Positions 20,001-48,200 of a stretch of 64,000 nucleotides of DNA are shown in pieces (the first letter of the stretch is position 1; the number at the start of each line of letters is the position of its first letter). Source of the stretch: Bombyx mori (Eukaryota; Arthropoda; Insecta; Lepidoptera; Bombycidae). Position numbers and translations under genes: made by a program. The stretch is from contig NC_085116.1 of the NCBI RefSeq assembly GCF_030269925.1, positions 14,322,001-14,386,000 of the forward strand, given 5' to 3'. The notes below the pieces were generated by a model. That model was not told the DNA's origin. It was given only the letters and a program-made list of their open reading frames with translations, and searched no databases.

Positions 20001-23000
20001 TACCAATTCTTATCCAAAAATCCAAACTTACCGAACGAAGTAGCGACGTTCGTAACCAGAGCAGCCAATCCTGAAGCGATGAAGAACCTCTTCGGATCTG
20101 GGTTCAATCCGATCATGTAATAAGCTATAGTTGTGAAGACTAATGGTATAGTGGCGAAAACGGGAGCTTCGGCTAACGTCTTCGATAAGAAATAGACGTC
20201 GGCTCGATACATTCCCGAGTGGTGCTCTCTGATGAAGATTGGTAGTTCAGAGCAGAATACCTGTAGGAAAATGCCAAATTGAGTATTAGGCTAATCATTT
20301 TTCTAAAATATCACCTGTGAACTGACTTTTTTTTTTATTTATTGCCCTTGTTGGCAGATGAGCATACGGCCCACCTGATGGTGAGTGGTTACCGTCGCCC
20401 ATGGACTTCAGCAATGCCAGGGGCAGAATCAAGCCGCTGCCTACCGTTAAAACTGCCAAAATGACACCGCTGTTAAAATATTGAAATTCTGAGTAATAGA
20501 TTGGATGTCTTTTTTACAATTAGTTCTAGTGTTAATCGTTCATTATAAAAGAAACACTGATGTATTTAAAATTTTTACTGGTGTTAGGACCTCTTATGAG
20601 TCCGCACGGGTAGGTACCACCGCCCCGCCTATTTCTGCCGTGAAGCAGTAATGCGTTTCGGTTTGAAGGGTGAGGCAGCCGTTGTAACTCTACTGAGACC
20701 TTAGAACTTATATCTCAAAGTGAGTGGCGCATTTACGTTGTAGATGTTTAGGGGATCCAGTAACCACTGTGGGCTGTGGTGTGTGGCACACCAGGTGGGC
20801 TGTGAGCTCGACCACACATCTAAGCAAAAAAAAAAAGAAGACGATAATCTTATAATGACTGTATTATTAATATTTTCGTTTGGGTTGAAAAAAAGTAGCA
20901 AAATTGCGATGTATAAAAGGTTGTTTTTTTGCGCTTATGGATAGCCGAGTTGAATCGTTGTAATATATTATATCAAAATGTAAGTGCCGCCATCCGTCTT
21001 AACGTAGAAGGTCCAAATCTCAACTGTATAGATGTGCGGCCGAACAAACCTTCACACTGGAATGTATGGCTGCTTTATTACAGAAATTAGATGGTAGTGG
21101 CTATACGTGATAATTTACAGCTTGATATCTACACATATAAATAAAATTGGAGTGTATGTTTGTAATATTGAAATAACCGCTTTTTACTACATGCATATGA
21201 ATACATACAACCAATGGTGCATACACCAAAATTAAATTTTTTACAATTTTTGTCTGGCTGTCTGTTTGTTCCGGCTAATCTCTGGAACGGCTGGACCCAT
21301 TTTGACGAGACTTTCACTGATAGGTAGCTGATAATATAAGAAGTAACTTAAGCTACTACTTTCTTTAGACTAGCTTCGCCCCGCGGCGTCATCCGCGGTA
21401 CGACAGTAAACGCGGGTAGGTAACATCGCGGGACTCAGCTATCAATAATAAAATTCAACGCTTCCGACGCGACGCGAGGGCGGGTCGCTAGTATTATTAT
21501 ATAAAGCAAAAAAAATATCCAAAAGGAAATTTAAATATCCTTCAACTCATTAATACAGATCAAGTATGTAAGTCTACAAAAAAATTATTATCAACTAATA
21601 AATTCCATTTGAAATCCCTCGAGTGAGTATTAATTATCAGTATTAAAATAAAAATGTGTACATATAATTAAAGCAGATATCCCGCTGACAAAATTAAATT
21701 AAACTAAGTTGTGTTTGTAGTGTGTGAACTGTGTGAAATAAAAATAATAAACTTGACATTTAAAAGTTCATTGAAATCGCCTGCTTTAGATAGTATCCGT
21801 GTTTAAAATGTTCGTAATTCCAAACACGCATGTTAAGATTATAAGTTTCATAAGTAAAATTTTAATTTAATAGAACATCAGTACAGAATGGATTAAATGA
21901 GCGAATGCGGAATTACCCCACCTAGTCTAAATTAGACTAAAAAGTTCATGAACGCTTCCTTAAAAATGCTACCGTCCAACTTAGGATATAAAGCTCAAAT
22001 TGGAAGCACAACTTCAATTAATTCGGAGAGCCAAATTTGCAACTAAAAAGACAAGACGGTCGTAGCAACACGTGCTAAACAAGCTATTTGAATTTTGAAC
22101 AAAACCCCAATCATTTTACATTTTTACTATTCTAATTAAGGCTTACACCGGTTTATAAGTTTTCGTTGTGCTTTGCGTGGCCTTGTGAGATCTAAGGAAA
22201 TGACTCCTTTATTTTAAATTCCTTTAATTTAATTAATAAAGTAAAAACAAGGGACAGCTTATATACAATACTTTAAGAGACTTTAGACTCATGTCTCATT
22301 TAGTGTTACCGACGCAGGGGCCTCGCCGCAAGGCGAGCGCGTGTTTAAGTCCCGGGGCAGCCCCCCCTGGGCAGTGCGAAGAAATGGAGTTTTCTCCAAC
22401 CAACACACTGCTCGCGGAATTCTTAAGCGAGAAATACCCGGCCCTCGAATCAGAATTTTTAGCTTACAAAGCTAAACGCGCCGTGAACTGTTCTGCCGTG
22501 CCCGCCGCGCCCGCCGTTTCCGCCACGCCTGCCATTCCCGCGTCCCCTGCAAGCGCGCGTAAAACTCCCGCGCCGTACACCGTAGCCTCCGTCGCGCCCA
22601 GCACACCCGTGTCCCCCATACTGTCGCGAAAAACTCCCGCGTCTACCGCGGCAGCTTCCGTTCTACCTCAGCGACCGTCTGCGGCCTCCGTCGCGTCCGC
22701 AGCTCCCGCGCCTTCCTCCTCGTCCTCCGACTCTGACTCGGATATGGAGGTTGACCTCGTTCCCGCCTCATTAACAGATGGATTCACTCTCGTGCAAAAG
22801 GGTAAGAAGCGCGCCGCGGAGTCCCGAGCTTCCGCGGCCGCTAAAATAAGCAAAGCCGCGAACGCGTCGCGCCCCCGCCCTCCGACCCCCGTCGCTCCCT
22901 GTCCCCGTGCCACGCCGTCGCCGCGCCCGGTGGCACAAACGAGAAATCAGGCCCCTCCTCCGTTGATTCTTCAAGAGAAGGCTGCTTGGGACCGTGTCTC

Positions 23001-26000
23001 CCTGGCCCTTAAGGCCAAGAACATAAATTTTGTCAGTGCCCGTAACCTCGCGAACGGGATACAGATAAAAGTAGCAACACCCGACGACCATAGGGCCCTC
23101 TCAAGCTACCTCCGAAAGGAGCGTATAAGTTATCATACGTATACGCTCCAGGAGGAGCGTGAGCTCCGTGCAGTCATACGTGGCATCCCCAAGGAGTTAG
23201 ATGCCGAGCTCGTAAAGGCCGACCTACTCGAACAAGGCCTACCCGTAAACTCCGTGCACCGCATGCACACAGGACGCGGGAGGGAGCCATACAATATGGT
23301 TCTCGTCGCCCTCCAGTCTACCCCCGAGGGTAAGCAAATCTTTAACGTCCGAACGGTCTGTAGGCTTTCCGGGATCACCGTGGAAACCCCTCATAAAAAA
23401 GGCACTCCGAGCCAGTGCCACAATTGTCAGTTGTACGGGCATTCTTCCCGTAATTGTCACGCGCGCCCTCGATGCGTCAAGTGTTTGGACAATCACGCCA
23501 CGATTCTTTGCACTCGCGATCAAAAAACCGCGACGGAACCACCTAGCTGCGTCCTGTGCCGAACACAGGGTCACCCCGCGAATTACCGTGGATGCCCCCG
23601 AGCCCCTAAAATAAATCACCGCGTCGCGCGTCAAAACCGCCTCCGAGCTTCCGGCCCTGACATCAAAGCCACGGCACCCTCTGTGTCGAAGGCTAAGCCT
23701 GCCTTCGTGCCGGCGCCGGTGCCCAGCGGCTCGGCCTGGGCTAAACCCTTGCCGTACACGAACACGGCTGTAGCTCCCTCCCCCGCGATTCGTCCCGCCC
23801 CCGCGATACGTCCCACCCCCGTGATTCGTTCCTCTCCCGTGATTCGTTCCTCCCCCGCGACCAGCACTCCGACCGCGTCCGACAATCTCGCTCTAGCGAT
23901 CGACTTTTTTCAGTCGATCAACTTTGAGCGTGTTAATGCTTTGGGTGACGCCATTCGCGCCGCCTCCACTGCACAACACTTCATCGCCGTTGTGCAAGAA
24001 TACGCTGACGTATACGCGTCGTTAAATACGTACGTCCTCCCCTCGCTCCGCCGGTAATCAATGGCGTACATAAATAGAATAAAGCCCCTATCCGTAACGA
24101 TAGGATTTTTTAACGCTTACGGTCTCGCAAATCAACGTGATCAGGTTTGTGATTTTTTGCGTGACCATCAAATTGACATCTTTTTGGTGCAGGAGACCCT
24201 GCTTAAGCCCGCGCGCCGCGACCCTAAAATCGCGAACTATAACATGGTTAGGAACGACAGGCTCACTGCTCGTGGTGGTGGTACCGTCATTTACTATAGA
24301 CGAGCCCTGCACTGCGTCCCACTCGACCCCCCCGCGCTTTCTAACATCGAAGCATCAGTATGCCGAATCTCACTGACTGGACACGCGCCGATAGTTATCG
24401 CGTCCGTTTATCTTCCACCGGATAAGATCGTTCTAAGCAGTGATATCGAGGCGCTGCTCGGCATGGGAAGCTCTGTCATTCTGGCGGGCGACCTTAATTG
24501 TAAACACGTCAGGTGGAACTCGCACACCACAACCCCAAATGGCAGGCGGCTTGACGCGTTAGTCGATGATCTTGCCTTCGATATCGTCGCTCCGCTAACC
24601 CCGACTCACTACCCGCTAAATATCGCGCATCGCCCGGATATACTCGACATAGCGTTATTAAAAAACGTAACTCTGCGCTTACACTCGATCGAAGTAGTTT
24701 CAGAGTTAGATTCAGACCATCGTCCCGTCGTTATGAAGCTCGGTCGCGCTCCCGATTCCGTTCCCGTCACGAGGACTGTGGTGGATTGGCACACGCTGGG
24801 CATCAGCCTGGCTGAATCTGATCCACCATCGCTCCCGTTTAGCCCGGATTCTACCCCATCTCCTCAGGATACCGCTGAAGCCATAGACATCTTAACGTCA
24901 CACATCACCTCGACATTAGATAGGTCATCGAAGCAAGTTGTAGCGGAGGACTTCCTTCACCGCTTCAAATTGCCCGACGATATTAGGGAACTCCTTAGAG
25001 CTAAGAACGCCTCGATCCGCGCCTACGATAGGTATCCTACCGTGGATAATCGTACTCGAATGCGTGCCCTACAACGCGACGTAAAGTCTCGCATCGCCGA
25101 AGTCCGAGATGCCAGATGGTCTGATTTCTTAGAAAGACTCGCGCCCTCCCAAAGGTCTTACTACCGCTTAGCTCGTACTCTCAAATCGGATACGGTAGTA
25201 ACTATGCCCCCCCTCGTAGGCCCCTCAGGCCAACTCGCGGCTTTCGATGATGATGAAAAAGCAGAGCTGCTGGCCGATACACTGCAAACCCAGTGCACGC
25301 CCAGCACTCAATCCATGGACCCTGTTCATGTAGAATTAGTAGACAGTGAGGTAGAACGCAGAGCCTCCTTGCCACCCTCGGATGCGTTACCACCCGTCAC
25401 CCCGATGGAAGTTAAAGACTTGATCAAAGACCTACGTCCTCGCAAGGCTCCCGGTTCCGACGGTATATCTAACCGCGTTATTAAACTTCTACCCGTCCAA
25501 CTCATCGTGATGTTGGCATCTATTTTCAATGCCGCTATGGCGAACTGTATCTTTCCCGCGGTGTGGAAAGAAGCGGACGTTATCGGCATACATAAACCCG
25601 GTAAACCAAAAAATCATCCGACGAGCTACCGCCCGATTAGCCTCCTCATGCCTCTAGGCAAACTGTATGAGCGTCTGCTCTACAAACGCCTCAGAGACTT
25701 CGTCTCATCCAAGGGCATTCTCATCGATGAACAATTTGGATTCCGTACAAATCACTCATGCGTTCAACAGGTGCACCGCCTCACGGAGCACATTCTTGTG
25801 GGGCTTAATCGACCAAAACCGTTATACACGGGAGCTCTCTTCTTCGACGTCGCAAAAGCGTTCGACAAAGTCTGGCACAATGGTTTGATTTTCAAACTAT
25901 TCAACATGGGTGTGCCGGATAGTCTCGTGCTCATCATACGGGACTTCTTGTCGAACCGCTCTTTTCGATATCGAGTCGAGGGAACCCGCTCCTCCCCACG

Positions 26001-27168
26001 ACCTCTCACAGCTGGAGTCCCGCAAGGCTCTGTCCTCTCACCCCTCCTATTTAGCTTATTCGTCAACGATATTCCCCGGTCGCCGCCGACCCATTTAGCT
26101 TTATTCGCCGACGACACGACTGTTTACTATTCTAGTAGAAATAAGTCCCTAATCGCGAAGAAGCTTCAGAGCGCAGCCCTAGCCCTAGGACAGTGGTTCC
26201 GAAAATGGCGCATAGACATCAACCCATCGAAAAGTACTGCGGTGCTATTTCAGAGGGGAAGCTCCACACGGATTTCCTCCCGGATTAGGAGGAGGAATCT
26301 CACACCCCCGATTACTCTCTTTAGACAACCCATACCCTGGGCTAGGAAGGTCAAGTACCTGGGCGTTACCCTGGATGCATCGATGACATTCCGCCCGCAT
26401 ATAAAATCAGTCCGTGACCGTGCCGCGTTTATTCTCGGTAGACTCTACCCCATGATCTGTAAGCGGAGTAAAATGTCCCTTCGGAACAAGGTGACACTTT
26501 ACAAAACTTGCATAAGGCCCGTCATGACTTACGCGAGTGTGGTGTTCGCTCACGCGGCCCGCACACACATAGACACCCTCCAATCCCTACAATCCCGCTT
26601 TTGTAGGTTAGCTGTCGGGGCTCCGTGGTTCGTGAGGAACGTTGACCTACACGACGACCTGGGCCTCGAATCAATTCGAAAATACATGAAGTCAGCGTCG
26701 GAACGATACTTCGATAAGGCTATGCGTCATGATAATCGCCTTATCGTTGCCGCCGCTGACTACTCCCCGAATCCTGATCATGCAGGAGCCAGTCACCGTC
26801 GACGCCCTAGACACGTCCTTACGGATCCATCAGATCCAATAACCGTTGCATTAGATGCCTTCAGCTCTAATACTAGGGGAAGGTTTAGGGACCCCGGTAA
26901 CCGTACTCGTCGAACTCGACAAAGAGGTCGACGTGCAACCTAATCCATGCATCAGCCCGCTGAGTTTCTCGCCGGATCTTCTCAGCGGGTCGCGATTCCG
27001 ATCCGGTAGTAGATTCATTCGCGAAACAATTGCTCTTGAGTTGTTAGGTCTCCTTCGGAGGCGCTCGGGCAGTTGTTAGCAAATCCCGCCCCTCTTGGCT
27101 GAGCTTTTGCTCGCCCACCTGTCCTGGTGAAACTGGAAAGGCCTTCGGGCCACCAGTAAACTTACAAT

Positions 27169-27241
<73 letters not shown>

Positions 27242-30200: not shown

Positions 30201-33200
30201 TGAAGCAGTAATGCGTTTCGGCTTGAAGGGTGGGGCAGCCGTTGTAACTATACTGAGACCTTAGAACTTATATCTCAAGGTGGGTGGCGCATTTACGTTG
30301 TAAATGTCTATGGGCCCCAGTAACCACTTAACGCCAGGTAGGGCTGTGAGCACGTCCACCCATCTAAGTTATAAATAAAAAGGCCGGTGACGCGATCCCA
30401 TAAGTTTTCCCCTACTAAAAAGTGCTTAATAAAGAATCAGAGCGCAGTGTCTAACGCAGAATCCAATTGTTGGCACCATCCAGGGACCCAATGAAATCGG
30501 TACGAGTTCATCAAAATCGGTCCAGCCATTTTGTTGGAGCTCATTGACAAACAGACATGATAAAGATAATTACGATTTCGGTTGTGTGAGGCTACGGTTG
30601 TTGCTGTATGTGTGTAACATCTAGATTAACAAAACTGATAAGGCTCTCAATTGCACAATCGTTAACAAACTGTCTCGCCATCTTAGATGTAGCTTTTTGC
30701 GTCAGAACAAAAAAGACGAAGACAGGTCAACGATCCCTTAGCTTATCTAACAAAAAAAAACCGTATAAGATAAGATAAGATACTCACGTTAATAACAGCG
30801 AATATGTTCTGGAACGTCATGTTCGTTAGGAACATGAAGATCGCCCCGTTGATGTTCATCACCCCGTCCTGGTCCAAGTTCTGGCCGAAGTATATGACGC
30901 CTATCAGTATCGACACCATCTGGAACGTTCGAGACGATGTCAATGTATACGAGATGAGCGTTTAGAGAACGGATACCGCAACATGTGTGCTTTACAAATC
31001 ATGGACCTAACTCCTACCAACTTCGGTTCGGAACAGAGGTACCTGGGATACAGAGTTTCCCTTTGCAAACCCAAAAAGTGATGAGTTGTTCACGATTGTA
31101 CAATGGATCAAAAGTTCATTTCTAATTTTTAATACTAGTGCGTTAATCTGCAAGATCAAATTTCGGCAGGCAGCGGCCTGGCATTGCTGAGGTTCATGGG
31201 CGACGGTAACCACTCACCGTCAGGTGGTCCGTATGCTCGTCTGCTTATAAGGGCAATAAAAAAAAAAAAGGACCACTGCTAACCAAAGCCAAGCGTCTTG
31301 GGTTTTTGTTGCATATCATTGTCCCATTATATCAAAGTATCCATGGGGCTATTCGGCTATTAGTGATTTCAATATCGTTCCACGGATACGGGAAATTAAT
31401 GAAAGGCTTTAGATTACAGGAAGAGGTAGACGATATGTGTAAGAGAGGAGTGAGCGAAGAAATGGTATATGGTACAGGAGTTATGGAAGGAGGAAATATG
31501 TTGTGCCGAATTCCGGTGACTGGGAAAAAGGCAGGAGAATGATGATGATGGATTCGGGAAATTAATGTTACTCGTTAATCAAGTTAAGAAAGCGTTCGAC
31601 AACAGAACTCACAATGGTCTGTAGGAAGCGAACTTTGATGAGCATCGGCTCCTTGGTGACGGAGAGCCAGGAGCGCCACAGCACGGCCCGGAACTGCGTG
31701 CACCACGACGCCTTGTACGGGGAGCGGCGGGCTCGCGTCGTCGACGACATGGCCCACGGCGCGTCCGCTAGCCCGGCCTGTATCTTACGCTAGAAACAAA
31801 TACAATTCATGTAATAGTCTATCATAGTGTTTCCCAAACTTTTTTTTGCCATGCCCCACATACATAATTTGTAATATAAAAAAATTGATTTGTTCACTTA
31901 AGAAACATGAATGTTATAATAGATTTTAGGAAGAAATAACTTTTTTTTGCTTTGATGGGTGGACGAGCTCACAGCCCACCTGGTGTTAAGTGGTTACTGG
32001 AGCCCATAGACATCTACAACGTAAATGTGCCACCCACCTTGAGATAAGTTCTAAGGTTTCAGTATAGTTACAACGGCTGCCCACCCTTCAAACCGAAACA
32101 CACGAAACTGCTTCACGGCAGAAACAGGCAGGGTGGTGGTACCTACCCGTCCCGACTCACAAGAGGGCCTACCACCAGTAAGTTAACAGTTAAGTTGTTA
32201 TCAAAACACAGTAAGTAATATTTCAGAACATAATTATAATAACAAACTGAAATTCAAATTCGTAATAATTTTAATAAAGATTTTCTATATTAATTTAGTG
32301 CGATTGTACCCCTTAATTATTAAATTGCTCCCTAGTGGGGCGTGGGCCTCACGTTGGGAAACACCGGTCTATCACGATAAATTTGTTGGGGTATTATATT
32401 TTGAAGATCAACTCGAAACTTCAACTTTCGTTGATTTCACCAATATATTTTTTATTGTTTTCAATGTGCTCACAGTGAACCTGTCTAATGAACTATAGTC
32501 GTCAGAATTGCAATTTTCATAACGTTATAAAGCTACGCTTCTAGTAAGGACACCAATCTGATATTGTTTCCGTCGATAAGGTTGGGTGGAGATATGGTAT
32601 TGGTACCACCACCCTGCCTGTTTCTGCCGTGAAGCAGTAATGCGGTTCGGTTTGAAGAGTGGGTCAGCCGTTGTAACTCTACTGAGACCTTAGAACTATA
32701 TCTCAAGGTGTGTGGCGCATTTCTATACTAATATTATAAAGAGGAAAGATTTGTTTGTTTGTTTGTTTCGAATAGGCTCCGAAACTACTGGACCGATTTG
32801 AAAAATTATTTTTCCATTAGAAGCCGACATTGTCCCTGATGAACATAGGCTACTTTTTTTATTTTTGGAGTTTACTCCTTTAGAATCGATTTACATATAT
32901 AGGCCCGGGGTATGAAAATTATGGGGACCAAAATCGTACTAGCATGTCACACGAAATGCGTTATGCGCCTGATTGGCTCCTGATTGCGTGATGCGTGCGC
33001 GCGCCAATCAAAATCGTACTAGCATGTCACACGAAATGCGTTATGCGCCTGATTGGCTCCTGATTGCGTGATGCGTGCGCGCGCCAATCAGGAGCCAACG
33101 CGCGGCCGCGTTATTGCAGGTGACGCCGGGCTGCTGCGCCGGCAGTCCGCCACAAAGCCTCGTACTGATCGCGCGTTTCTCTCATTATTGTATTTTCATA

Positions 33201-36200
33201 TATTTGTTAGTCGTTTGTTTTGTGTCTCGTTAATTTGTTAATAATCTGTAGTGTATCGTGTTGTCGTAATATAGAACTATTTCTCGTATTGTTTCGTTTA
33301 ATTTTTTATATCCAGTAAACTCCAGTCGTGCGTCGGAGCGGACACACACACTTTTTGGAGTTTACTCCTTTAGAATCGATTTACATATATAGGCCCGGGG
33401 TATGAAAATTATGGGGACCAAAATCGTACTAGCATGTCACACGAAATGCGTTATGCGCCTGATTGCGCATGTCACACGAAATGCGTTATCGCAGGTGACG
33501 CCGGGCTGCTGCGCCGGCAGTCCGCCACAAAGCCTCGTACTGATCGCGTGTTTCTCTCATTATTGTATTTTCATATATTTGTTAGTCGTTTGTTTTGTGT
33601 CTCGTTAATTTGTTAATAATCTGTAGTGTATCGTGTTGTCGTAATATAGAACTATTTCTCGTATTGTTTCGTTTAATTTTTTATATCCAGTAAACTCCAG
33701 TCGTGCGTCGGAGCGGACACACACACTTTTAATTTTTTTATATCCAGTAAACTCCAGTCGTGCGTCGGAGCGGACACACACACTTTTTTTTTTGGAGTTT
33801 ACTCCTTTAGAATCGATTTACATATATAGGCCCGGGGTATGAAAATTATGGGGACCAAAATCGTACTAGCATGTCACACGAAATGCGTTATGCGCCTGAT
33901 TGGCTCCTGATTGCGTGATGCGTGCGCGCGCCAATCAAAATCGTACTAGCATGTCACACGAAATGCGTTATGCGCCTGATTGGCTCCTGATTGCGTGATG
34001 CGTGCGCGCGCCAATCAGGAGCCAACGCGCGGCCGCGTTATCGCAGGTGACGCCGGGCTGCTGCGCCGGCAGTCCGCCACAAAGCCTCGTACTGATCGCG
34101 CGTTTCTCTCATTATTGTATTTTCATATATTTGTTAGTCGTTTGTTTTGTGTCTCGTTAATTTGTTAATAATCTGTAGTGTATCGTGTTGTCGTAATATA
34201 GAACTATTTCTCGTATTGTTTCGTTTAATTTTTTATATCCAGTAAACTCCAGTCGTGCGTCGGAGCGGACACACACACTTTTTTTTTTTTTTTTTTTGGT
34301 TTCATGTGTCTTTTAATGTTTCCGAAGCGAAGCGAGGGCGGGTCGCTAGTACTTTGTAAATGTCTTGGGCACCAGTTACCACTTAACACCAGGTGGCTGT
34401 GAGCTCGTCCACCCATCTAAACAATAAAAAAAATTATAATATAAAACATAATAATATAGTTATTCAATAACCACTTACTTCATTATAGAGCGCATTTTCA
34501 GCTTCCGCAGCTATCCTACACCCGATCTCGGATTTGGCGAAGGCCGTGCAAACTGTATCTATGGTGTGCCTCGTGACCTCCTCTCTTCCAGGTACTCCGG
34601 CGAGGAGTTGGATGAAGTGGTCAGCCGGGTTGTAGTTAGCGGGACACGCGGCGCCCAGCCTTGAGGTTAAAGATAGAGATGCTGTAGATTTTGTACGTAA
34701 CTTTTGCGACTACATACATCGCCTTTTCGCATTAAAAGTGTAAAATTTCCAAAAATGTTCGTAATTCAGTTAATATGCGTAAACATTTGGTATCACCGGT
34801 TTTTTTCTCATCAATACTGTCAAAAGAGCGTAAGAGCGTAATTTAGTTTTAGTTTTTATTTTTTTTATTTTCCTTTTTTTTGACTACCATTAACAAAATT
34901 AATACATACTTTTATCTTACTTTAAAAGACAGATAATGTAACTGGTAAAAAAGTATATGACGGAGGAGAAACGCTGAAGGAATGTTTTTAAAAAGTGTGA
35001 CGTCAGCATTGTTGACGTCACGGTCTTTAAGTTCTCGATGATGACTCATATTTGGGCTTCCAAAACAAAACTTCACGAGAACTGCGTATATTGCACGAGA
35101 AGCATAACAACGTTACAGAGAGATCCGTACTGTACTACGGCTCGGACACGAATGCCTAAACGCTAGACAGCACGGCCGTATTTATAGGACTTCGTACACG
35201 TCAGCGTGTTTACAAGTATTAAACACGTGAGCGTGTTTACAAGATTTTAAAGTATTGAAATTACAATAAAAGGGACTGTTTAACATCAATTTCTTATCAC
35301 AGAGTAATTAGTTGATGATCAGTAGGTAAATAGTCATATTTGCGCCGACACGGCCATACTGACAGGCGGTGCGCGCTCTGCACCGGCCTCGTTGATTCTC
35401 GTAGGTTTTTCTTTGATTCTCATTGACCTGTAGGAATAAAAAGTTTCTCTGAGTAGCGCATCTGTTATACTTGCGTTACTTGTAACTATGAAGGTTTGAG
35501 ACTTATTAATGCGATTTGATTGTAGGGTTCTCGGAGGGTATCGTAGGGTTCTCGGAGGGTATCGTAGGGTTCTCGGAGGGTATAGTAGGGTTCTCGTAGG
35601 GTATAGTAGGTAGGGTTCTCGTAGAATTCTCGGCGGTTCTCGTAGAGTTCTCGGCGGTTCTCGTAGAGTTCTCGGCGGTTCTCGTAGAGTTCTCGGCGGT
35701 TCTCGTAGAGTTCTCGGCGGTTCTCGTAGATTTATTTAAGGTGTTCGGATAAGGATGTTGTCTAGTGTGATGTTGTGGCGTACACTGTGGTACTTATGTA
35801 GTGGGCGTACACTGTGGTACTTATGTAGTGGGCGTACACTGTGGTACTTATGTAGTGGGCGTACACTGTGGTACTTATGTAGTGGGCGTACACTGTGGTA
35901 CTTATGTAGTGGGCGTACACTGTGGTACTTATGTAGTGGGCGTACACTGTGGTACTTATGTAGTGGGCGTACACTGTGGTACTTATGTAGTGGGCGTACA
36001 CTGTGGTACTTATGTAGTGGGCGTACACTGTGGTACTTATGTAGTGGGCGTACACTGTGGTACTTATGTAGTGGAATTTTAGTAATCAAAAATAAAAACT
36101 TATCTTTGAGTGTTGATTTTGTTGCTCGACCATGCTGATTTGTGAAGTAGATGTATAGGCTCATCGGCTGTTGCTGGGGGGTAGTCTTCTTCCGCCGATA

Positions 36201-39200
36201 TGGTTAAATGGTCTCCAGGTTGTTGCTGAGCGGAGGCGGCATGTGATCCCACTTCTGATGACGGAGGAGAAACGCTGAAGGAATGTTTTTAAAAAGTGTG
36301 ACGTCAGCATCGTTGACGTCACGGTCTTTAAGTTCTCGATGATGACTCATATTTGGGCTTCCAAAACAAAACTTCACGAGAACTGCGTATATTGCACGAG
36401 AAGCATAACAACGTTACAGAGAGATCCGTACTGTACTACGGCTCGGACACGAATGCCTAAACGCTAGACAGCACGGCCGTATTTATAGGACTTCGTACAC
36501 GTCAGCGTGTTTACAAGTATTAAACACGTGAGCGTGTTTACAAGATTTTAAAGTATTGAAATTACAATAAAAGGGACTGTTTAACATCAATTTCTTATCA
36601 CAGAGTAATTAGTTGATGATCAGTAGGTAAATAGTCATATTTGCGCCGACATATATGAAAATGTTGCAAAGATCATTAATATTAAAAATATCACATGTTA
36701 AACCTTTAAAACACTCTCCTGTAAAATTTGTAAGTTTTGAGATTATACAGTTTTAATGCGAGAAGACGACATTATCGAAGAAGACAACATCGTATTTAAG
36801 AGCCCTGTATAAAATTTACTAACTATCGCAGTTTTTATTACGTAAATTAGAAGAGATCGCGATTCAAATCCAAGAATCGATTTTCTTACTCGTTAAGGCA
36901 TAATCGAATTCTAAGCCAATTCTAATTATGTAACTGAATTAGTAGCCTTTATTCAAATCCATATTACAATTATATGATCAAATTTATAGAAAACTTAAAT
37001 TTAATGTAAGCTTTAAACTAGTCTCTTATTTAAATTTTACTTATTTTTTATAGATCTCTTTGCCAATCGATAAAGGCCTGCAATATTTTCCACTCATGTC
37101 TTGCTTGAGCCACTCTGTTCCACGCGATAGCCAAGATTACATAGTGTATACGAAAAAAAATCCTTGATTAATGACAATGATAAGTACGTAAACAGTCCCC
37201 AAGTATATCGGCTTGCAAAATCATACCATTTTAATAATCACAAATTCATTCTCAACTGGTCATATTTATTACATTATCATAAAGTTCCAAAATTTAAAAT
37301 TATCTAAACAAAATCTCAAGAGCCACACAAGTCTTCTCCATTTTGTTCTGCAGACGGCAAACGAGTTGATGCCTTAGAGACTTGGATACCCTGGACTGCA
37401 TATAAGACCATAGGATCTACACTTACTAAGCTCAAAAACAAAATAAAGCTTTTTACCCTCTGCTTCAAGCAAACCCTAAAGAGCTGCGGACGCATTAGAA
37501 GAATAGACGAAGAAAATCTTCGAGTGATAATTTCTTCAAAAGGCAAGAAACAAGAACTAGAAGTCGCAGCTCATTGCATTGGTCTGATCAGATCCATACC
37601 TCCCTGAATTCTAGCACGATGCTAGCTGAGTAGCCAAAGATAGAATGAAACGGCAGAGTATCGTAAGGACGACAGGCATGACTGGAGGTAGTCACTTAAC
37701 CTGAGGAGCAAGACTGGAGGAGGAGGGAGGACTATCGCACAGTACCGAATAAGCTAGCACATCACATGTAATAGTCAGATTTAAAGCTAAGCTACTTACT
37801 CTTTGAAGAACTGGAAAGCTTCATCAGATGATCCTAAGAAAGCAACTCTTCCGTCAGCCATTATGAGGAGCTTGTCAAACATAGCGTAAAGCTCTGAAGA
37901 GGGCTGGTGAATTGTGCAGACCACGGTCTTGCCCTTCTGTGCCAAGCCTTTCAGTACCTGAGTAACAAAATGCATTAAGTTTAGAATTTTTTTTTGTTAA
38001 AATTTGAACTTGAAATTCCTAAAAAAAGCCTAGATATGATGTTGAACTTAAAACAAGTGAAAACATGATAATGAAAACTGGAACATTACTTTCTTCAGTA
38101 AACATTGTGAATGTAATAGTGCGCAATGATAAAGAAAACTCACTGAGTTTCTCGCCGGATCTTCTCGGTGGGTCGCGATTCCGATCCGGTAGTAGATTCA
38201 GCGAAATACTGATCTAGCTAGGGCTAATGTTAGCAATTCACTCAGGTTGAGCCCGTGAGCTCACCTTCCCCATGAAGTTGGAATAGCCCCTTAGGCTACC
38301 AACGATTAGGTAGGGGACAAAGGATGGAGAAATAAGCATACTGACCTGTATAACGTTTTGGGCCATAAATGAATCAAGCCCAGAGGTGGGTTCGTCGCAG
38401 AACATGAGAGGAGGATCCGTGAGGACTTCACTGGCGAAGGAAAGCCGCTTCATCTCACCCCCCGATATGCCCTTCAGTCGACCGGGTATACCGATCACTG
38501 TGTTCTGGCATTTCGACAGCGCCAACTAAAGATACAAAATGGCCGATTTTTTAATTGTTTGGTTTGATTTCGATTAAGGTATTTCCTTTGGTTTTCCAGA
38601 TATAACGTAAAAAAAAATTAAGTAACTAATGAAATTTATTGATTACTATAAATTTGAAAGGGCTAAAATGAGAGTCTATCACAACAATGATGTAAAGTAT
38701 ATTTCGGAAATAACTAAATGCTTAGTCTAATTATGTCTTCTCAGACTTGGAAAACCAAAGAATCGAAAAAGATCCAATTTTGTTTATTTACAATGAGAAT
38801 AATTTTGTTGTGCGCCTTTATTAATTTCAAAATAGGATTAGTAAATTGTAATGTATATACATACCTCTTGAATAACTTCTTGAACTCTCTTCATTCTCTG
38901 AGCGTATGGTATGTGGCGATCCATTCTCACCATCGCCTATAAAACATTAAAACTGGTCACTTTAATCCACAGAATTAAAAAGTTGCATACCTAGCTTCCG
39001 GTAGGAGAAAAAAAAAACAGTTTTTTTTTTCTTAAAAAACACAAAGTAATCAAGCACCATTTTCTCTTAATTGGAAACAGTACTTTTTTTATTTGTAGTT
39101 ATAACACAACCTTTAGTGTTATCAATAAAAAAAAACAACACGTTTATTTAGAACGCATTTTTTTACAGCTTAGACTATCGGGCGATTATTTTTAAAGTAG

Positions 39201-42200
39201 CAATGGCTTACGCTTATGTTTTCAGAAACAGTTGTGGAGGAAGCACCTTGTTATTAAAGCTGTCATAGAAAGAAGTCATAGGGCATCTTATAAGTCCCCA
39301 CACTTAGATACCACGACCCTGCCTATTTCTGCCGTGAAGCAGCAATGCGTTTCGGCTTGAAGGGCGTTCTAAAGCTAACCCTGTAATAACACGGTAGATA
39401 CGTCTCGTGTTGTGCGAACCCGTGATATAAGACTAGAAGTCAGTACAAAAATGAGGGTAATTTTTCTAAATGGAACATCTCAACTATACCTGTATGTATT
39501 TTTTACCTTTTAAACATAGGAAAGAGGCAGTAAAATTTCGGATTTTCATATTATGTTCATAGTTCAAAAATCTCGTTATCGTATTGTAGAAGTAACGTGT
39601 TATAATAAGAGGGTTTTGGGCGATTTTTTCTTTTCGTGTTAGAGTGGTACCGTGTTGTAAAAAACCGCGTTATAAGACCTGTGTTCATTCAAAACTCGTG
39701 TCCAAGGTGGACAGAGGCATCTACGTTGTTGATGTCTATTGGCTCCATAAATCCCAACTCAATTTTGTATCGCTTCAGCCGAGTTATTCCTTCTTGTGTC
39801 TCGGCTATACAAACTGTATAATTAGCGATTTAGCTTCAAATTTGACTTTTTCGTACCCTTGAATAGAATGTAGATTACAAGGCCGTATAATTTTTCCATT
39901 CATTAAATTTTAAAATGAAACTATCATATGTATAAAGCTCGTTCCGGCCTTGGTAACACAACTTCGTTAATCAATTAACATACTTAAATTTAGATTTACT
40001 GTCTGGTTTTTAAGTGTTTTTTTTTAATATATGATTTACGCTGTCAGCCGGTGTTGATGCCATGTCTGTCAATTGGTAAGGTTAAATGTGAAAACATCTC
40101 AATTTAAAAATACACGAGTTTTTGTTGCTCTAAATAGTAGCTTAATTATGCAATGTTAGGACATAGACTGAATTCATAAATTTTATACTCATTTATCATT
40201 ATTTTTTTAAATTTATTTGCTAATTTATTTTATCTACCAATGTACCTGCTACGTTCTTTTCCGCATAACACTTCGTTGACTGGTAGAGAATCGCTTAGTC
40301 ATTAAGTCCGCTAATGTATATTTATGTGCAAAAATAAATAAAAAATACAACGCGAATTCCGCCACCCACCTCATTACATGAGGTCATATTATCCATTTCT
40401 GTACAGTATCTTTAAAATCTGAATCGCTGCAGAATATTTAGGGATCATTACGGAATCTATATTTTTTTATTGCTTAGATGAGTAAACGAGCTCACGGCTT
40501 ATTTGGTGTTAAGTGCTTACCGGAGCCTATAGACATCTACAACGTAAATACAAACCCATCTTGAGTCAAGAGTTCTAAGGTCTCAGTTTTAAAACTACAA
40601 CGGCTACTCCACTCTTCAAACCGAGACGCATTACTGCTTCAGGGCCGAAATAGGCAGGGTGGTGGTACCCACACGTGCGGACTCACAAGACGTCCTACCA
40701 CCAGAAAATTTATGTACATGTCTATGAATTAACTATCCTGTAAATGCCAATGCATATGGATTAACGTGGTCCTATAACCTATTGGAATCCCTTCATCCGA
40801 GAAGCAACTATGCTTGTTAACGCAGGAGTCACTCACTGCGTTATTACCACAAAGAAATACCAAAAAATATATTTATCACGGATTAGAATTAACTTGTTTT
40901 AAAACAGAGACGTCTTAACACAGTTTTATAGAAAATATGTTTTTTTTCACTGGTCAAGGCCTCGTAAACCGGATTCGTCTCCGTTTAGTTTTCGAAGCTT
41001 CTACTGTTTTTGTTCTAGCGTGTTGTGTAACGTGCTCATTTGCCTCGAGACGGAACGAATTTTATTATTCATACATTCTTTTATTTATTGAATACTATAA
41101 CACCTGTATCATTAAAACGAATTTACGATGACAGGGACGTGGAGAAAGTGAATGACGCACAAATAATAATGTCTTAAAGTCGCCAAATATGTACTGTATT
41201 GCATTTTTAATACGCTTTTATTAGCTTCAGACGTATGTATGTAACGGAATCTTTGAACATGATTTTGACCCCCTTCAAAACGTCGGATTAACTCGAAATT
41301 TGGTATATTTATTATGGACCGATGACAATTAAATATTTGAAAAAATATATTGAAGAAATTGAAATTCAACTAAAAAATGAAAAATAAATAATACTTTAAA
41401 AAAAACTAACAAAATACGCTTTTATAGAAAATCCAACTTAACATATAGAAAATACATTTTAATAAATTTGAATTAAAAATAGTGTAAGAAAAAATGATTT
41501 TATTGTAAAAAAAAGCTTTTCAGGATATTATCAAAATAACCCTTCTACTCATATCTGTTCATAAAATATTTATAACTACTTTTAAACTATTATTTAGTTT
41601 TTTTTTATCTATTATTTATTTGAGTAAATAAACGTTCTATTCAATTGTTCCTCGATTAATGTTGCTCAAGTTTTACGACTAAGGAACATATCCAGCGTCA
41701 CTGAACAACGAGCTCATCATTCAGTACTTATATTTGAGGCTTGTGTGTAGAGCGTGGACTGTATTTTGGACTGGTCGCTTCAATAAAGCTATATTCAGAG
41801 CGAAGGATTTTTATTTTCTTTTAAGGTACAACACGTGCACGTACGACCAGATTTTTTTATTCAAAAACGATCATACAAAACTTCATGCTTAGGATTGCTC
41901 TAAAGAGCCTCAAACCCGTGAAGTTGAAGTATGAACCCGCAACAAGCTTTTAATTCCTTCCTTTATTAGTCCGTTATCCAATTGTATTTTTTAAATAGAG
42001 AACGCTGATACATAACTTAAAAGTTACGAAATATTTACCACTACTACGAACCAAGAAAAACAAATTTACGGCTAATTCGTTGTCAAAGCCACTAGTTTCC
42101 AGTTAGGTAGGTACGTGAAATTTTCCGCGCAGTTAATGTCGTAATATTTAATTAAACAAACCGTAATTACCTGAAATACCAAATGCTCTCGCACGGTCAA

Positions 42201-45200
42201 AGTGCCTATGAACAGATCCTGTTGCTGGACATAAGCCGACAGCGCTGTCAAAGCGTCAGGAGTGGCCGGTTGCCCATTCAACGCCCTGGTACCAGTGGCG
42301 ACAACACCACCGGGCGTTCTGAACGTAAGCGTATTGAGGAGTGTGGTCTTTCCGGCTCCCGACGATCCCATGATGGCCAGCAGTTCACCAGGATAGGCCG
42401 CTCCGTTTACTGTTATGAGTCGAGATAATTTTAATGAATAAAAAAGTATAAAAGATTGAAATAATATATTTCTAGTTAAAAATATATATTTTATTTTGTT
42501 TTCATCATTTGTTACATTGAAATAACAAATGATGAAAACAAAAACTATAATAATATACAAGCAATAAATACACAAAACATAAATATATCTAGCTCAAGTA
42601 TATTTTTAATGCCAGCTACATGTGAGGAAATTTATAAAACAATTCATTCTCTCAATAATACTAACTCAACAGGTTATGATGAACTGCCCACCTTTATACT
42701 AAAACAATGTGCAATAGCCATTACACCTGTACTCTGTCATATTATCAATCTTTCATTAACTGAAGGTACATTTCCTGATAAATTGAAAATCTCAATAGTG
42801 AAACCTATATACAAAAAAGGACATAAGGAATGCATCAATAACTACCGACCGATTACTTTAATACCTATACTTGCAAAAATATTCGAAAAAATCATGCATT
42901 CTAGACTCACAACTTTTCTTAATAAATCTGAAGTTATAAAATCTGAACAACACGGTTTTCAAAAAGGCAAATCTACTACACTAGCAGCTTTTAAACTCAT
43001 TAGTAAAATTACTGAAAATGTAGACAGAAAAATACCCACGGTTGGAGTTTTCTTTGACATGACCAAAGCCTTTGACTTTGTTGACCATAACATTCTTCTA
43101 CGGAAGTGTAATAATTATGGCATTAGAGGGATAGCTGAAAAATGGCTTAGTAGTTATCTAAGCAACAGACAACAATATGTTGAAATTAGGGATATTGATA
43201 ATAACAATGAAGAAGTGGCTTTTAAATCTTCATTAGCGTATAATAAAGTAGGTGTCCCACAAGGGAGCATTTTAGGACCGCTACTCTTTATCATTTATAT
43301 AAATGATCTCCCAGAACACATACATTACCCATGCAGCTTATTTGCTGATGATATAGCCGTTGTAATCACCAAAGATGCCACACTAGATTTAAATGATGAG
43401 ATAAATGCTACTGTTAGTAAGGTCATAGATTGGATGAATAAGAATAACTTAAAAGCTAATTTAGACAAAACGAGATATATACAATTCTATAATAGACACA
43501 AATTTATTAATAACTTAAATATAACTTATAATAATAACACACTAAATGAATGTAATAGCATAACATTTTTAGGATTAAATGTGGATAATCAATGTAGCTG
43601 GAATCTTCACATAGATATTACTTGTAGTAAAATTAATCGATTCTCATATGCACTTTGGCGACTTACAAAAATATGTAATTTAAAAACTGCATTACAGGCC
43701 TATCATGGATATGTCGCCTCAAATATCAGATACTGTATACCCCTCTGGGGAAATTCTAGTCACATAAATAGAGTGTTCATTGCACAAAAGCAATGTGTTC
43801 GTGCCATGTGCAATATTCATCCTCTGACTTCTTGTAAACCATTCTTCCAAAAACATAATATTTTAACTGTACCATCCATATATATACAAGAATGTTGTTT
43901 GTTTGTTAAAAAGCACCCACAATTATATAAATCGTGTGGCGAGTACTGTCAATTTAATACAAGATACCCTACTAAACTAATGTTACCAAGTATAAATACT
44001 CGTTACTACCATACAAACTGTTATCCTATGACTATCAGAATATTTAATAAGATACCAAACAGCATAAGAGATCTTCCACTAACTCAATTTAAAAGAAAAT
44101 TATATTTATGGCTGATAGATAAGGCTTATTATAGTGTGCAAGAATTTTTAAATGATAAGTGTTGTACATAATAAAATATTAGAATAAGAAGTGATAGAAT
44201 GTAAAAATAGATAGATTTAGTAAATTTTGTGTTATAATTAATATAAAAATAAATTAAATTTTCGCATGCCTAAACAGGCGAAATATATGAAGCTATGTCC
44301 TATATCTTATAAACTATATTTCTGGCGAATAAAGATTTTCTTTCTTTCTTTCTTTCTTAAAAACACAAATTTGTTAATAAAGGCGGAATCACCTCTGACA
44401 GGTATATGTAACAAAATTCTATTACATTAACATATTTTTGATTTTCAGGAAAAATTCCACCAAATATATCATAGCGTGATGTAATAATATAATGTAATGG
44501 TATGTAATGTAATCTACCCAACTTTATTATATATCTAAAAGTAAACTGTTCTATGGATGGAATGGTTACATCGCGCTATCTTATTTGAATTGACAGTCAG
44601 CTTGCAAAGCACGATGCTAAGATGGGTATGGGTACAAGCTACAATTTGTTACACCGGCTATATTAATTAGCTTAGAAATTTCTTGACTTTGCAACAATCT
44701 GTCTACGATTCATGAAAATCTTATTAAAATTCTGTAAATCTTAATATAAAATGTGATTTTATTAAAAACTAGTTTGAGTTAAAAGATATATTTCAAAACA
44801 ACATTTGGTGTATAAATACCGACAGTATCCGTAATTCAGTTGAATGTGAATATGTAAATGATGTAGGTGTGTTTTTATGTTGAAATTATAAATTAAACGA
44901 AGTGATATCAGATAACGAGACATTAAAAGCCTTATCTGTGAGATTCTGAATGATCTAAAAGTAATTCAGACAGACGTTATCGTCAAAATTTAATGCTGCG
45001 TTATATGCAGATTTATCAGACAATTCTTCTGGTTTATTGATCTATGGTATAGTTGTACACAATTATGTTTGGAGAATTTGGATTTGTGAAGAATAAATGA
45101 AGAAAATACTAAAGACATTTCTTTCCCAATTCTCTTGAACTAATCGGCGCAGAATCTTGTCAGCTGTTAGTACGCAAAATATCGTCTTCTCGCATTAAAA

Positions 45201-48200
45201 CTGTATAATCTCAAAACTTACTAATTTTACAGGAGAGTGCTTTAAAGGTTAACATGTGATATTTTTAATGTTAATCTCTTTGCAACATTTATTTTTTATC
45301 TTTTACCAGTCACATTATCTGTCTTTTAAAGTAAGATAAAATTATGTATTAATTTTGTTAATAGTAGTCAAAATATAGGTAAACTAAAAAAAAAAAAAAA
45401 AAAACTAAACTGGCGCTCTAACTGACAGTATTTATGAGAAAAATACTGGTGATACTAAATGATTCCGCATATTACCTCAATTTCGAATATTTTTGGTAAT
45501 TGTACACTTTTAATGCGAAAAGACGATATACTGATCAGCTTTTGGCTCATGGAAGTTATTCTAACTTAGACCTTAACGGTATTCAAATTGTCATGTCGAC
45601 TTAGCTTAAAACTATCGTTAGAGATGCCAATGCGACTAGGAATAATATCTAAATTATTTTTCCAACTATCATATAAGCCGGTCAGATTTGAAGTAGTCTA
45701 CAATTACAAAATTTACTGACTACATATATGTTTCTTTGATGACCGAGCATTAACAATGTTTAATCTCATAAAAAAAAAGCTTACTAAAGAGTGTAATGAA
45801 AGGGAAAATTAAAATATTAATAAACTCTATCGCCTCAGTAATTTACAGTAGTTTTCGAGAAAAGTGTATATTAAGCTAATCAAAAAATTATACGAATATA
45901 TTGTGAAAATCAAAGTACATACAAACGTAATACGTTCACGTACAGATTGAATGTTCGTTGCTTTGAGATTGTTTATTGCAAGTTGAAGCAGTAGCCGAAT
46001 TGAATATGCAATTTCGAAAAGGGCACATCTCTGAAAATATAAAATGTTCAGGAAATGAAAAAAACTGATTTTTTTCTAAAGCAGTGTAAAATTTATAATA
46101 TTAACTTTCGAGATATATTTTAGTGTTAATTAGCAATTGAAAATTACTGGAATTATTATAAAATGGGTGTAGGTAAGCCTCAAAACTACATGTATATGAA
46201 AAAACGTATTTGACAAAATATGCGACATGTGCCCTTTTCGAAATTACATATTCAATTATTTATGGCATTGATAACCAGTCTATAAAAATAAATGAGAATC
46301 TCACCATTTCTAAGCAACTGCTTTCTTTGCTGGAACATGCGATCCGAAGAATTTTTCCAAAAGCTCCAGAACCTTCTTCCTCTCGATCTGGACTCTGTGG
46401 CGAAAGCGTTGACATCGGCCCACGTGTAAGTAACTTTTTCAATACCTCCGATGGCTCCGTAGTTGCGATTTTGAGGTATGGCCACAGTGACTTCACCGAC
46501 ACTTGATCGTGGCGAGTCATTTGGCGTTTGACCATCCTGGTTAAACAACATAGAAAAATGGTATCATTTAAAAAAAAAACTGAAAAAAAGAATTGACATC
46601 CGCGGGGTGGTACCACCACCCTACCTATTTCTGCCGTAAAGCAGTAATGCGTTTCGGTTTGAAGGGTGTGGCAGCCGTTGTAACTATACTTGAGACCTTA
46701 GAACTTATATCTCGAAGTGGGTGGCGCATTTACGTTGTAGATGTCTATGGGCTCCAGTAACTACTTAACACCAGGTGGGCTGTGAGCTCGTCCAGCCATC
46801 TAAGCAATAAATAAATTAAAAAAAAAAACAGTACGAGATATAACCGAATGTGATAAAGTGGCAAAGGCTAAATATCTACACCATAATAGAATTCACTGCT
46901 CGGAATTTAAAGCACTTTACTAAATTGTAATTAGCTACATTAATTTAAATGATTGTAAGTATTTAGTATAAGACTCTTCGAATACAGCGACAACTACTTC
47001 ATTCCATCATAATTCAAAAAGTCAAACAATCTAAAACAAATAATTGAATAACAACAAGCATTCGATACTTATCTACACAATCCTGTTTTAACTAGAGCGT
47101 GGTTTATTGGGTATTCAATACCCGGAAAGAATTTGAACATATCAGTTTCAATTCAGGCTTAAATTTCTAATACAACTGAAAGACGGCTTCAGTTTTATGG
47201 AGTAAATTATACACTAATTAGATTAGTATAGGTCAAGTTCTTATCTAAGCTGGACTTGTTTTACCCAATGAAACATTCTAAAGTTCGAAATGCCGGGCAA
47301 TTGCGTTTAACTCCTAAAATGACTTGTTGAATTAATTATCTATAGTATCAAATATTAAAAAGAAAAAGAGAGAGTGTGTGCTTTATTGTAAACTAAATAA
47401 ATAAATAAATGTGAAACGTTAAATACAAAAAATACAGTTGGCGGTCTTATCGTTAAGAGCTATCCAGTCAACCATCAGGTGGACAAGAATCATTAGGAAA
47501 CAAATTACACGTGGTGTACCTATCGATCGAAATATACATATTTTTCGACACACAGCATACATATATGTATAGAAACATACACACATACACATATATACAT
47601 ACAACATATATACATATACAAATATCTAACAGTCAAAACAGAAACAGTTTAACTGTGATAATGGCGTTTGCAACAGTGAATATTGGGAGCCCATTAAATA
47701 TGAAAGTCGTGATAAGAACCTGTTAAATGTAGTATTTAAAGCAGTTTTTATTGCGTAAATATGCAAAAGAGATCTCGATCCAAATACAAAAATTGTCAAA
47801 GCTTAACCGATAACGATTTCTTCTTCTGAATTCTTACTGATAAGGAAAAATTCTAAGCCAGTACTATACAGAGTATAAATCAAACATTTTACTTGATATT
47901 AAATAGTAGCATTGGGAAATAATGATTAGATCAATAGTGCTGCCGTGAAACTTTAAAATAATTGGTAATTAAGAACAAAGTCCAAAAACCTTGCATATTC
48001 AAAGGGATTTTATAGGTAAACCTTTAATGTTATTTTGAGTGATTACCGTAGCCCACAAACATTAAGATGTTACTCGTATAAAAAAAACCCGGAGTATCAG
48101 TTGCCTGGGAATAACAGCTACTTTTTACCTAACAGATTTCTCTGTATATTGTCTACATAGAATAGCATCACCCCATCTCTTCCTGTGGGTGTAGTAAAAG

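Follow-up and report, generated by a model that had tools for sequence, protein, structure and literature searches.

A 64,000-nucleotide window of the silkworm Bombyx mori genome (RefSeq assembly GCF_030269925.1, contig NC_085116.1, forward-strand positions 14,322,001 to 14,386,000; positions below count from the first base of the window) contains, at 34958-36651, a complete long terminal repeat (LTR) element that has no genes. We find that this element belongs to a recently active family of very probably non-autonomous, short LTR retrotransposons, most likely of the Ty3/gypsy type. One base of its LTR has also been hit repeatedly by long interspersed nuclear elements (LINEs).

The element is bounded by two 393-bp direct repeats with TG..CA ends that differ at one base (LTR position 53, T/C) and are flanked by a TATA duplication, all of which an earlier note made from the letters of the window had claimed and re-inspection found to be exact. 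Chance is excluded as the origin of a repeat pair of such length and identity with a matching duplication. The single difference (35010) falls in the loop of a 9-bp inverted repeat, GTGACGTCA/TGACGTCAC. The sense strand of the element is the minus strand, on which each LTR contains TATAAATA once, in agreement with the minus-strand TATA box that the earlier note assigned to each LTR. Two 21-bp arrays and one 27-bp array dominate the 908-bp interior, as the note had also stated, and together cover approximately 511 bases (Tandem Repeats Finder). The insertion site directly adjoins one of two inverted repeat copies (34715-34950 and 45301-45530, approximately 85-90% alike), and the element is inserted beside this older repeat.

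We searched the assembly to which the window belongs (461.7 Mb in 30 contigs) with the LTR and scored the best 40 of 376 first-look candidates. These matches, each at least 98% identical, are spread over 18 contigs and represent 26 loci, including the window: 16 intact two-LTR elements (the window's among them), six elements with one LTR interrupted and four solo LTRs, defined by the absence of a second LTR within approximately 4.8 kb. The sample is biased to young copies because the loci were picked by closeness to the window's LTR. A search with a LINE led to an additional interrupted LTR (L044), which is a solo LTR since neither leader nor tail lies alongside it. A 4-bp duplication is present at all 26 checkable insertions (the 26 loci and L044, minus L026, whose far end lay outside the sequence retrieved): TATA at 22, TGTA at two (L013 and L014), TATC at one (L022) and TGCT at one (L044). 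Flanks differ among the insertions checked, and each has its own duplication.

Within the 16 intact elements, the LTRs of a pair differ at no base in eight cases, at one in four, at two in one and at three in three, for a total of 15 differences over 16 pairs of 393 bp. Many copies, target duplications, solo LTRs and near-identical LTR pairs support a recently active, gene-less LTR family, and the earlier note's reading of a recently active non-autonomous family holds on the same grounds. The similarity search that the note proposed found the LTR neither confined to this locus nor carried by a duplicated segment without target duplications. Tandem arrays account for over half of the interior of the window's element and could suggest that the direct repeats arose by segmental duplication or satellite spread instead of retrotransposition; copies on 18 contigs, each insertion's own duplication, a shared primer site and solo LTRs make such an origin barely credible.

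This primer site lies on the minus strand, where the earlier note had seen no obvious one. In 15 of the 16 intact elements, TCAGAAGTGGGAT follows the sense 5' LTR immediately; in L014, the junction lacks three bases and the site therefore overlaps the end of the LTR. The sense interior correspondingly opens with TCAGAAGTGGGATCACATGC straight after the LTR in 15 of 16, and the same bases are present in L014. The site is complementary to tRNA-Leu, an identification that draws on Drosophila and ant papers: a study of Drosophila pre-tRNA-Leu uses the primer TGTCAGAAGTGGGATTCG (PMC11495624), and the tRNA sequence is thus that of Drosophila and may not be that of this genome.

The interior has a fixed layout and a variable length. 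All 16 intact elements carry the 27-bp array first and the 21-bp arrays after it, while the 27-bp array numbers between 2.3 and 31.3 units and the interiors are 618-1501 bp long. L011 and L012 have 5' LTRs that differ at one of 393 bases, yet the elements have 19 and 2 units of the 27-bp array; similarly, L010 and L013 have LTRs one base apart and 10 versus 5 units. Since near-identical LTRs carry such different arrays, unit number seems to change faster than LTR bases. The earlier note had described an interior expanding as a minisatellite: the arrays do vary in unit number among copies, and expansion as a direction is not shown because some copies exceed the unit number of the window's element and others fall below it. 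Units may be gained and lost by slippage or template switching, either in reverse transcription or after insertion.

Both unit lengths are multiples of three, and a sense frame that opens at a shared ATG (MSLYIYF) reads through the arrays. That the element encodes a repeat protein is nevertheless improbable. Frames of at least 70 codons are listed in 13 of the 16 intact copies and the longest, in L011, reaches 394 codons, consistent with coding; against this, frame length varies from 70 to 394 codons, three intact copies (L012, L015 and L017) list no such frame, and antisense frames through the arrays are likewise open in most copies. Pfam searches of two window frames and of L011's longest frame returned no gag, pol or other credible domain. 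The window's frame matched NUMOD1 (E 9.4e-06, above its cut-off, with no stretch significant alone) and that of L011 matched Plasmodium_HRP (E 2.8e-09, below its cut-off), both of which we read as effects of a short histidine-rich repeat. We take the sense frame to be a by-product of stop-free repeat units and judge a coding interior unlikely.

Near-identical TG..CA LTRs, a target duplication, copies at unrelated sites and the absence of gag or pol from the frames searched, which run through the arrays, are features of non-autonomous LTR retrotransposons. Terminal-repeat retrotransposons in miniature (TRIMs) are defined as elements of less than 1000 bp with terminal repeats of 100-250 bp and a polypurine tract ahead of the 3' LTR (PMC6934838). 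The 16 elements measure 1404-2287 bp, their LTRs are 393 bp long and no polypurine tract was seen in any of them, and we therefore file the family as TRIM-like and not as TRIM: a non-autonomous LTR retrotransposon that probably depends on a Ty3/gypsy-type element. The same label in the earlier note holds as far as a gene-less LTR element is meant, and its strict sense does not apply. Large retrotransposon derivatives (LARDs) have a large, non-coding interior of several kilobases, and the interiors of 618-1501 bp fall outside this class.

Retrozymes carry a hammerhead ribozyme in the LTR, and Helenus-type TRIMs carry tRNA-like promoter sequence there. Their overall build is similar to that of the silkworm element, and hymenopteran Helenus families include tRNA-Leu users. 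The window element has neither signature: positions 34900-36700 gave no Rfam match up to E 5, the A-box consensus for RNA polymerase III fits only at two mismatches on either strand of the LTR, and the B box fits only at three, on the sense strand. We thus rejected a ribozyme-bearing or tRNA-like LTR, and membership in either group appears highly improbable.

The features of the family suggest a life cycle that depends on another element. Its RNA would start in the sense 5' LTR, on the minus strand, some 20-30 bp after TATAAATA. Proteins of a gypsy-type element located elsewhere in the genome, perhaps one of the mdg3 group, would then package this RNA and copy it into DNA with tRNA-Leu as primer, and the integrase of this helper would insert the product. 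We infer, in other words, movement in trans. Two features of the mdg3-group element Spoink (below), an AT-rich 4-bp duplication and the position of the primer site right behind the LTR, are found in the family, which itself carries no reverse transcriptase that a phylogeny could place.

Several observations weigh against this reading. In none of the 16 intact elements was a polypurine tract seen ahead of the sense 3' LTR (24 bases examined in each and 40 in the window's); the sequence there reads ..TGTCAGTATGGCCG in 16 of 16. A special RNA fold in place of the tract was rejected: a stretch of 80 bases spanning the end of the interior showed no better folding than shuffled versions of it (z 0.48). 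Judged by the match to the Drosophila primer, the primer site pairs inside the tRNA 3' end and not with the terminal CCA. Many TATA duplications sit in TA runs and could easily appear there by accident; these are weak alone, so that TGTA, TATC, TGCT and the less repetitive flanks bear the argument. Errantiviruses and their derivatives are described as integrating into TATA, CGCG or ATAT and the blastopia and 412 subgroups as unspecific (PMC5408687). TATA at 22 of 26 insertions would fit errantivirus-like integration, which counts against the mdg3 guess and the comparison with Spoink.

Nor did we find an autonomous partner with the same LTR when the assembly was searched for a pattern of LTR-end CA plus primer site. 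With the studied family excluded, this pattern occurs at nine places and at none in the reversed control. L065, L066, L068 and L070-L073 form one family, in which the LTR-end CA is followed by TCAGAAGTGGGATC, as in the studied element; BLAST found no relationship between its LTR and the studied one. Starting at the primer site, six of the seven copies have a frame that is still open where the retrieved sequence stops (133 codons), and L073 has one of 110 codons; the frame is weakly gag-like (E 0.0085, below the cut-off). Two copies were sampled, and in each a further LTR, with 503 bases identical to the first, lies within approximately 1.8 kb; comparison there with the pol of a gypsy-type element in the window (9183-14007) gave nothing beyond E 6.9. 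Because the second LTR is too near for a whole gag-pol and no pol match was seen, this family is short and seems to be without pol. Its candidacy as the autonomous partner is thus not supported, and it is perhaps a gag-only relative. At the other two places, L067 and L069, the longest frames after the site have 60 and 90 codons.

PbTRIM of the red harvester ant (PMC3532108) is similarly gene-less, small and young, with solo LTRs and no partner found, and it also has a tRNA-Leu primer site immediately after the 5' LTR and 4-bp duplications, ATAT being the commonest. PbTRIM differs in its length (480-781 bp), in its LTRs (152-184 bp) and in having a polypurine tract, and the word 'tandem' is absent from the text of that paper. 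Spoink, of the Drosophila gypsy/mdg3 group, shares a 4-bp, ATAT-enriched duplication and a primer site directly after the LTR, a position that the Spoink paper calls unlike most Ty3/gypsy elements (PMC10965091). A polymerase chain reaction primer published there begins with TCAGAAGTGGGATCGGG and has the same 14 bases, TCAGAAGTGGGATC, as the primer site studied here; it probably lies on Spoink's own primer-binding site. Spoink differs in being 5,216 nt long with gag-pol and in its LTR ends (TG..TA versus TG..CA in the silkworm element).

Minisatellites have been tied to LTR elements elsewhere (review PMC9659126, which covers mouse MaLR LTRs and lists a soybean study among its references), though the relevant passages of that review describe no family that varies by arrays in a fixed order. 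In the open-access literature, which is incompletely covered, we recognised no publication that deals with the present family or with LINEs inserting at a single LTR base. BmTEdb took in LTR elements identified by structure only where these had Pfam protein domains (PMC3722987), and a gene-less family could for this reason sit among its other repeats.

We now turn to the interrupted LTRs. LINEs interrupt six of the 48 sampled LTRs and six of the 22 two-LTR elements, and L044, found separately, brings the number to seven. All seven insertions join at the same base and in one orientation, which for the six is sense. The junction in the six has poly-A joined to GCGTT (GCATT in L030) at LTR position 187-188. 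This site is approximately 15 bp past TATAAATA and probably close to the transcription start. Five hits are in a sense 5' LTR and one (L030) is in a 3' LTR. A duplication of 7-11 bp is present in all five interrupted LTRs whose other junction was fetched; the other end of L026 lies beyond the sequence retrieved. If sites were hit evenly, the chance of six hits at one base and orientation among 786 possibilities would be approximately 3e-15, a value computed after the site had been seen. No other LTR of the same loci is split according to BLAST, and the interrupted LTR of L029 also has a small gap.

A shared base and orientation in all seven could mean that these LTRs are copies of a single insertion. 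The inserts, however, are truncated at different points (lengths of about 349, 638, 705, 747, 1240 and >3,700 bp) and derive from three LINE subfamilies: four belong to one at approximately 99% identity, L026 is 86-90% like those, and L030 is separate. Each of the six interrupted LTRs also shares its local variant with its intact mate, and the GCATTT of L030 occurs in no other LTR listed. Because interrupted LTRs match their mates in this way and L030's variant is unique, the LINE hits came after insertion of the elements and separately; descent from one insertion is very unlikely. The L030 insert is 98.8% identical to a LINE in the window at about 22299-27238, which has endonuclease and reverse transcriptase domains and a 67-base poly-A and sits in an unrelated target with the duplication ACTCATGTCTCA.

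A search from the LINE side gave 1308 candidates and 40 scored copies, 30 of which were read. Two of these are at the LTR site (one being the query's own locus), 27 are in other targets and L042 is unreadable, so that independent LTR hits amount to one of 28 readable copies other than the query. Duplications of 7-11 bp accompany 18 of the 30 copies, both LTR ones included; none was found in the remaining 12, and in six of these the LINE start is beyond the sequence retrieved. A LINE specific to this LTR is rejected, as 27 of the 30 close copies have other targets, and the LTR base is strongly over-used all the same. Promoter opening or local sequence could cause this one-base preference. We tentatively propose, at somewhat less than even confidence, that the LTR is a landing pad for otherwise scattered endonuclease-type LINEs, which would nick it at one base near the expected start and in one orientation, with the LTR sequence or the open promoter steering target-primed reverse transcription. 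For maize, the passage on the Wukong TRIM names hAT and Copia-like insertions and mentions no single site (PMC6934838).

Features of the LTR element in the window, in order of position
Feature	Position	Strand	Method
Target site duplication TATA, left	34954..34957	.	Sequence inspection
LTR, 393 bp, 3' LTR in the sense direction	34958..35350	-	
9-bp inverted repeat GTGACGTCA/TGACGTCAC, towards the sense 3' end of the LTR	34997..35021	.	
LINE-insertion site AGCGTTTAGG, sense LTR positions 187-196, empty in the sense 3' LTR	35155..35164	-	
TATAAATA, sense LTR position 165-172, in the sense 3' LTR	35179..35186	-	
Interior end adjoining the sense 3' LTR, without polypurine tract	35351..35521	-	
21-bp tandem array, 4.2 units	35522..35610	-	Tandem Repeats Finder
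21-bp tandem array, 5.6 units	35614..35730	-	Tandem Repeats Finder
Open frame, 142 codons, through the 27-bp array, probably not a gene	35736..36164	-	
27-bp tandem array, 11.3 units	35770..36074	-	Tandem Repeats Finder
Interior leader, 184 bp, common to copies	36075..36258	-	
Primer-binding site TCAGAAGTGGGAT, complementary to tRNA-Leu, directly after the sense 5' LTR	36246..36258	-	
LTR, 393 bp, 5' LTR in the sense direction	36259..36651	-	
LINE-insertion site, also empty in the sense 5' LTR	36456..36465	-	
TATAAATA of the sense 5' LTR, probable promoter of the element RNA	36480..36487	-	
Target site duplication TATA, right	36652..36655	.	Sequence inspection

The window contains several other features of note. 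The gypsy-type element at 9183-14007 is apparently complete. Its 389-bp LTRs are identical, GGTT flanks it at either end, TTGGTGACCCC follows the LTR and a purine run precedes the 3' LTR; of its two open frames, one has 305 codons (Pfam DUF7041) and the other 1047. A cluster of LTR-like pieces with an 80-bp tandem at 32857-34291 is 96-97% identical to the LTR of this element over 199-239 bases and appears to be a rearranged, LTR-only relative. On the minus strand, 51237-54910 holds a second LINE type, with an endonuclease and reverse transcriptase frame and a smaller cysteine-rich frame upstream, and 42072-42593 holds a short frame resembling an ATP-binding cassette (ABC) transporter nucleotide-binding domain. 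The latter includes the motif GSSGAGKTT, which we take to be a sign of ABC transporters, and is possibly an exon of a White-type gene.

The family can be viewed as a clock with two hands, in which LTR substitutions record insertion age and the arrays record gains and losses of units. Such a clock could address whether minisatellites mutate during or after reverse transcription. The primer site suggests that a moth has a gypsy-type helper, and it has a parallel in PbTRIM of the ant. Repeated LINE hits at one LTR base offer a way to study how a LINE with little target preference is steered, and an element may be silenced when its 5' LTR is interrupted. If the LTR does attract LINEs in the manner proposed, the promoter of one retrotransposon would be broken by another.

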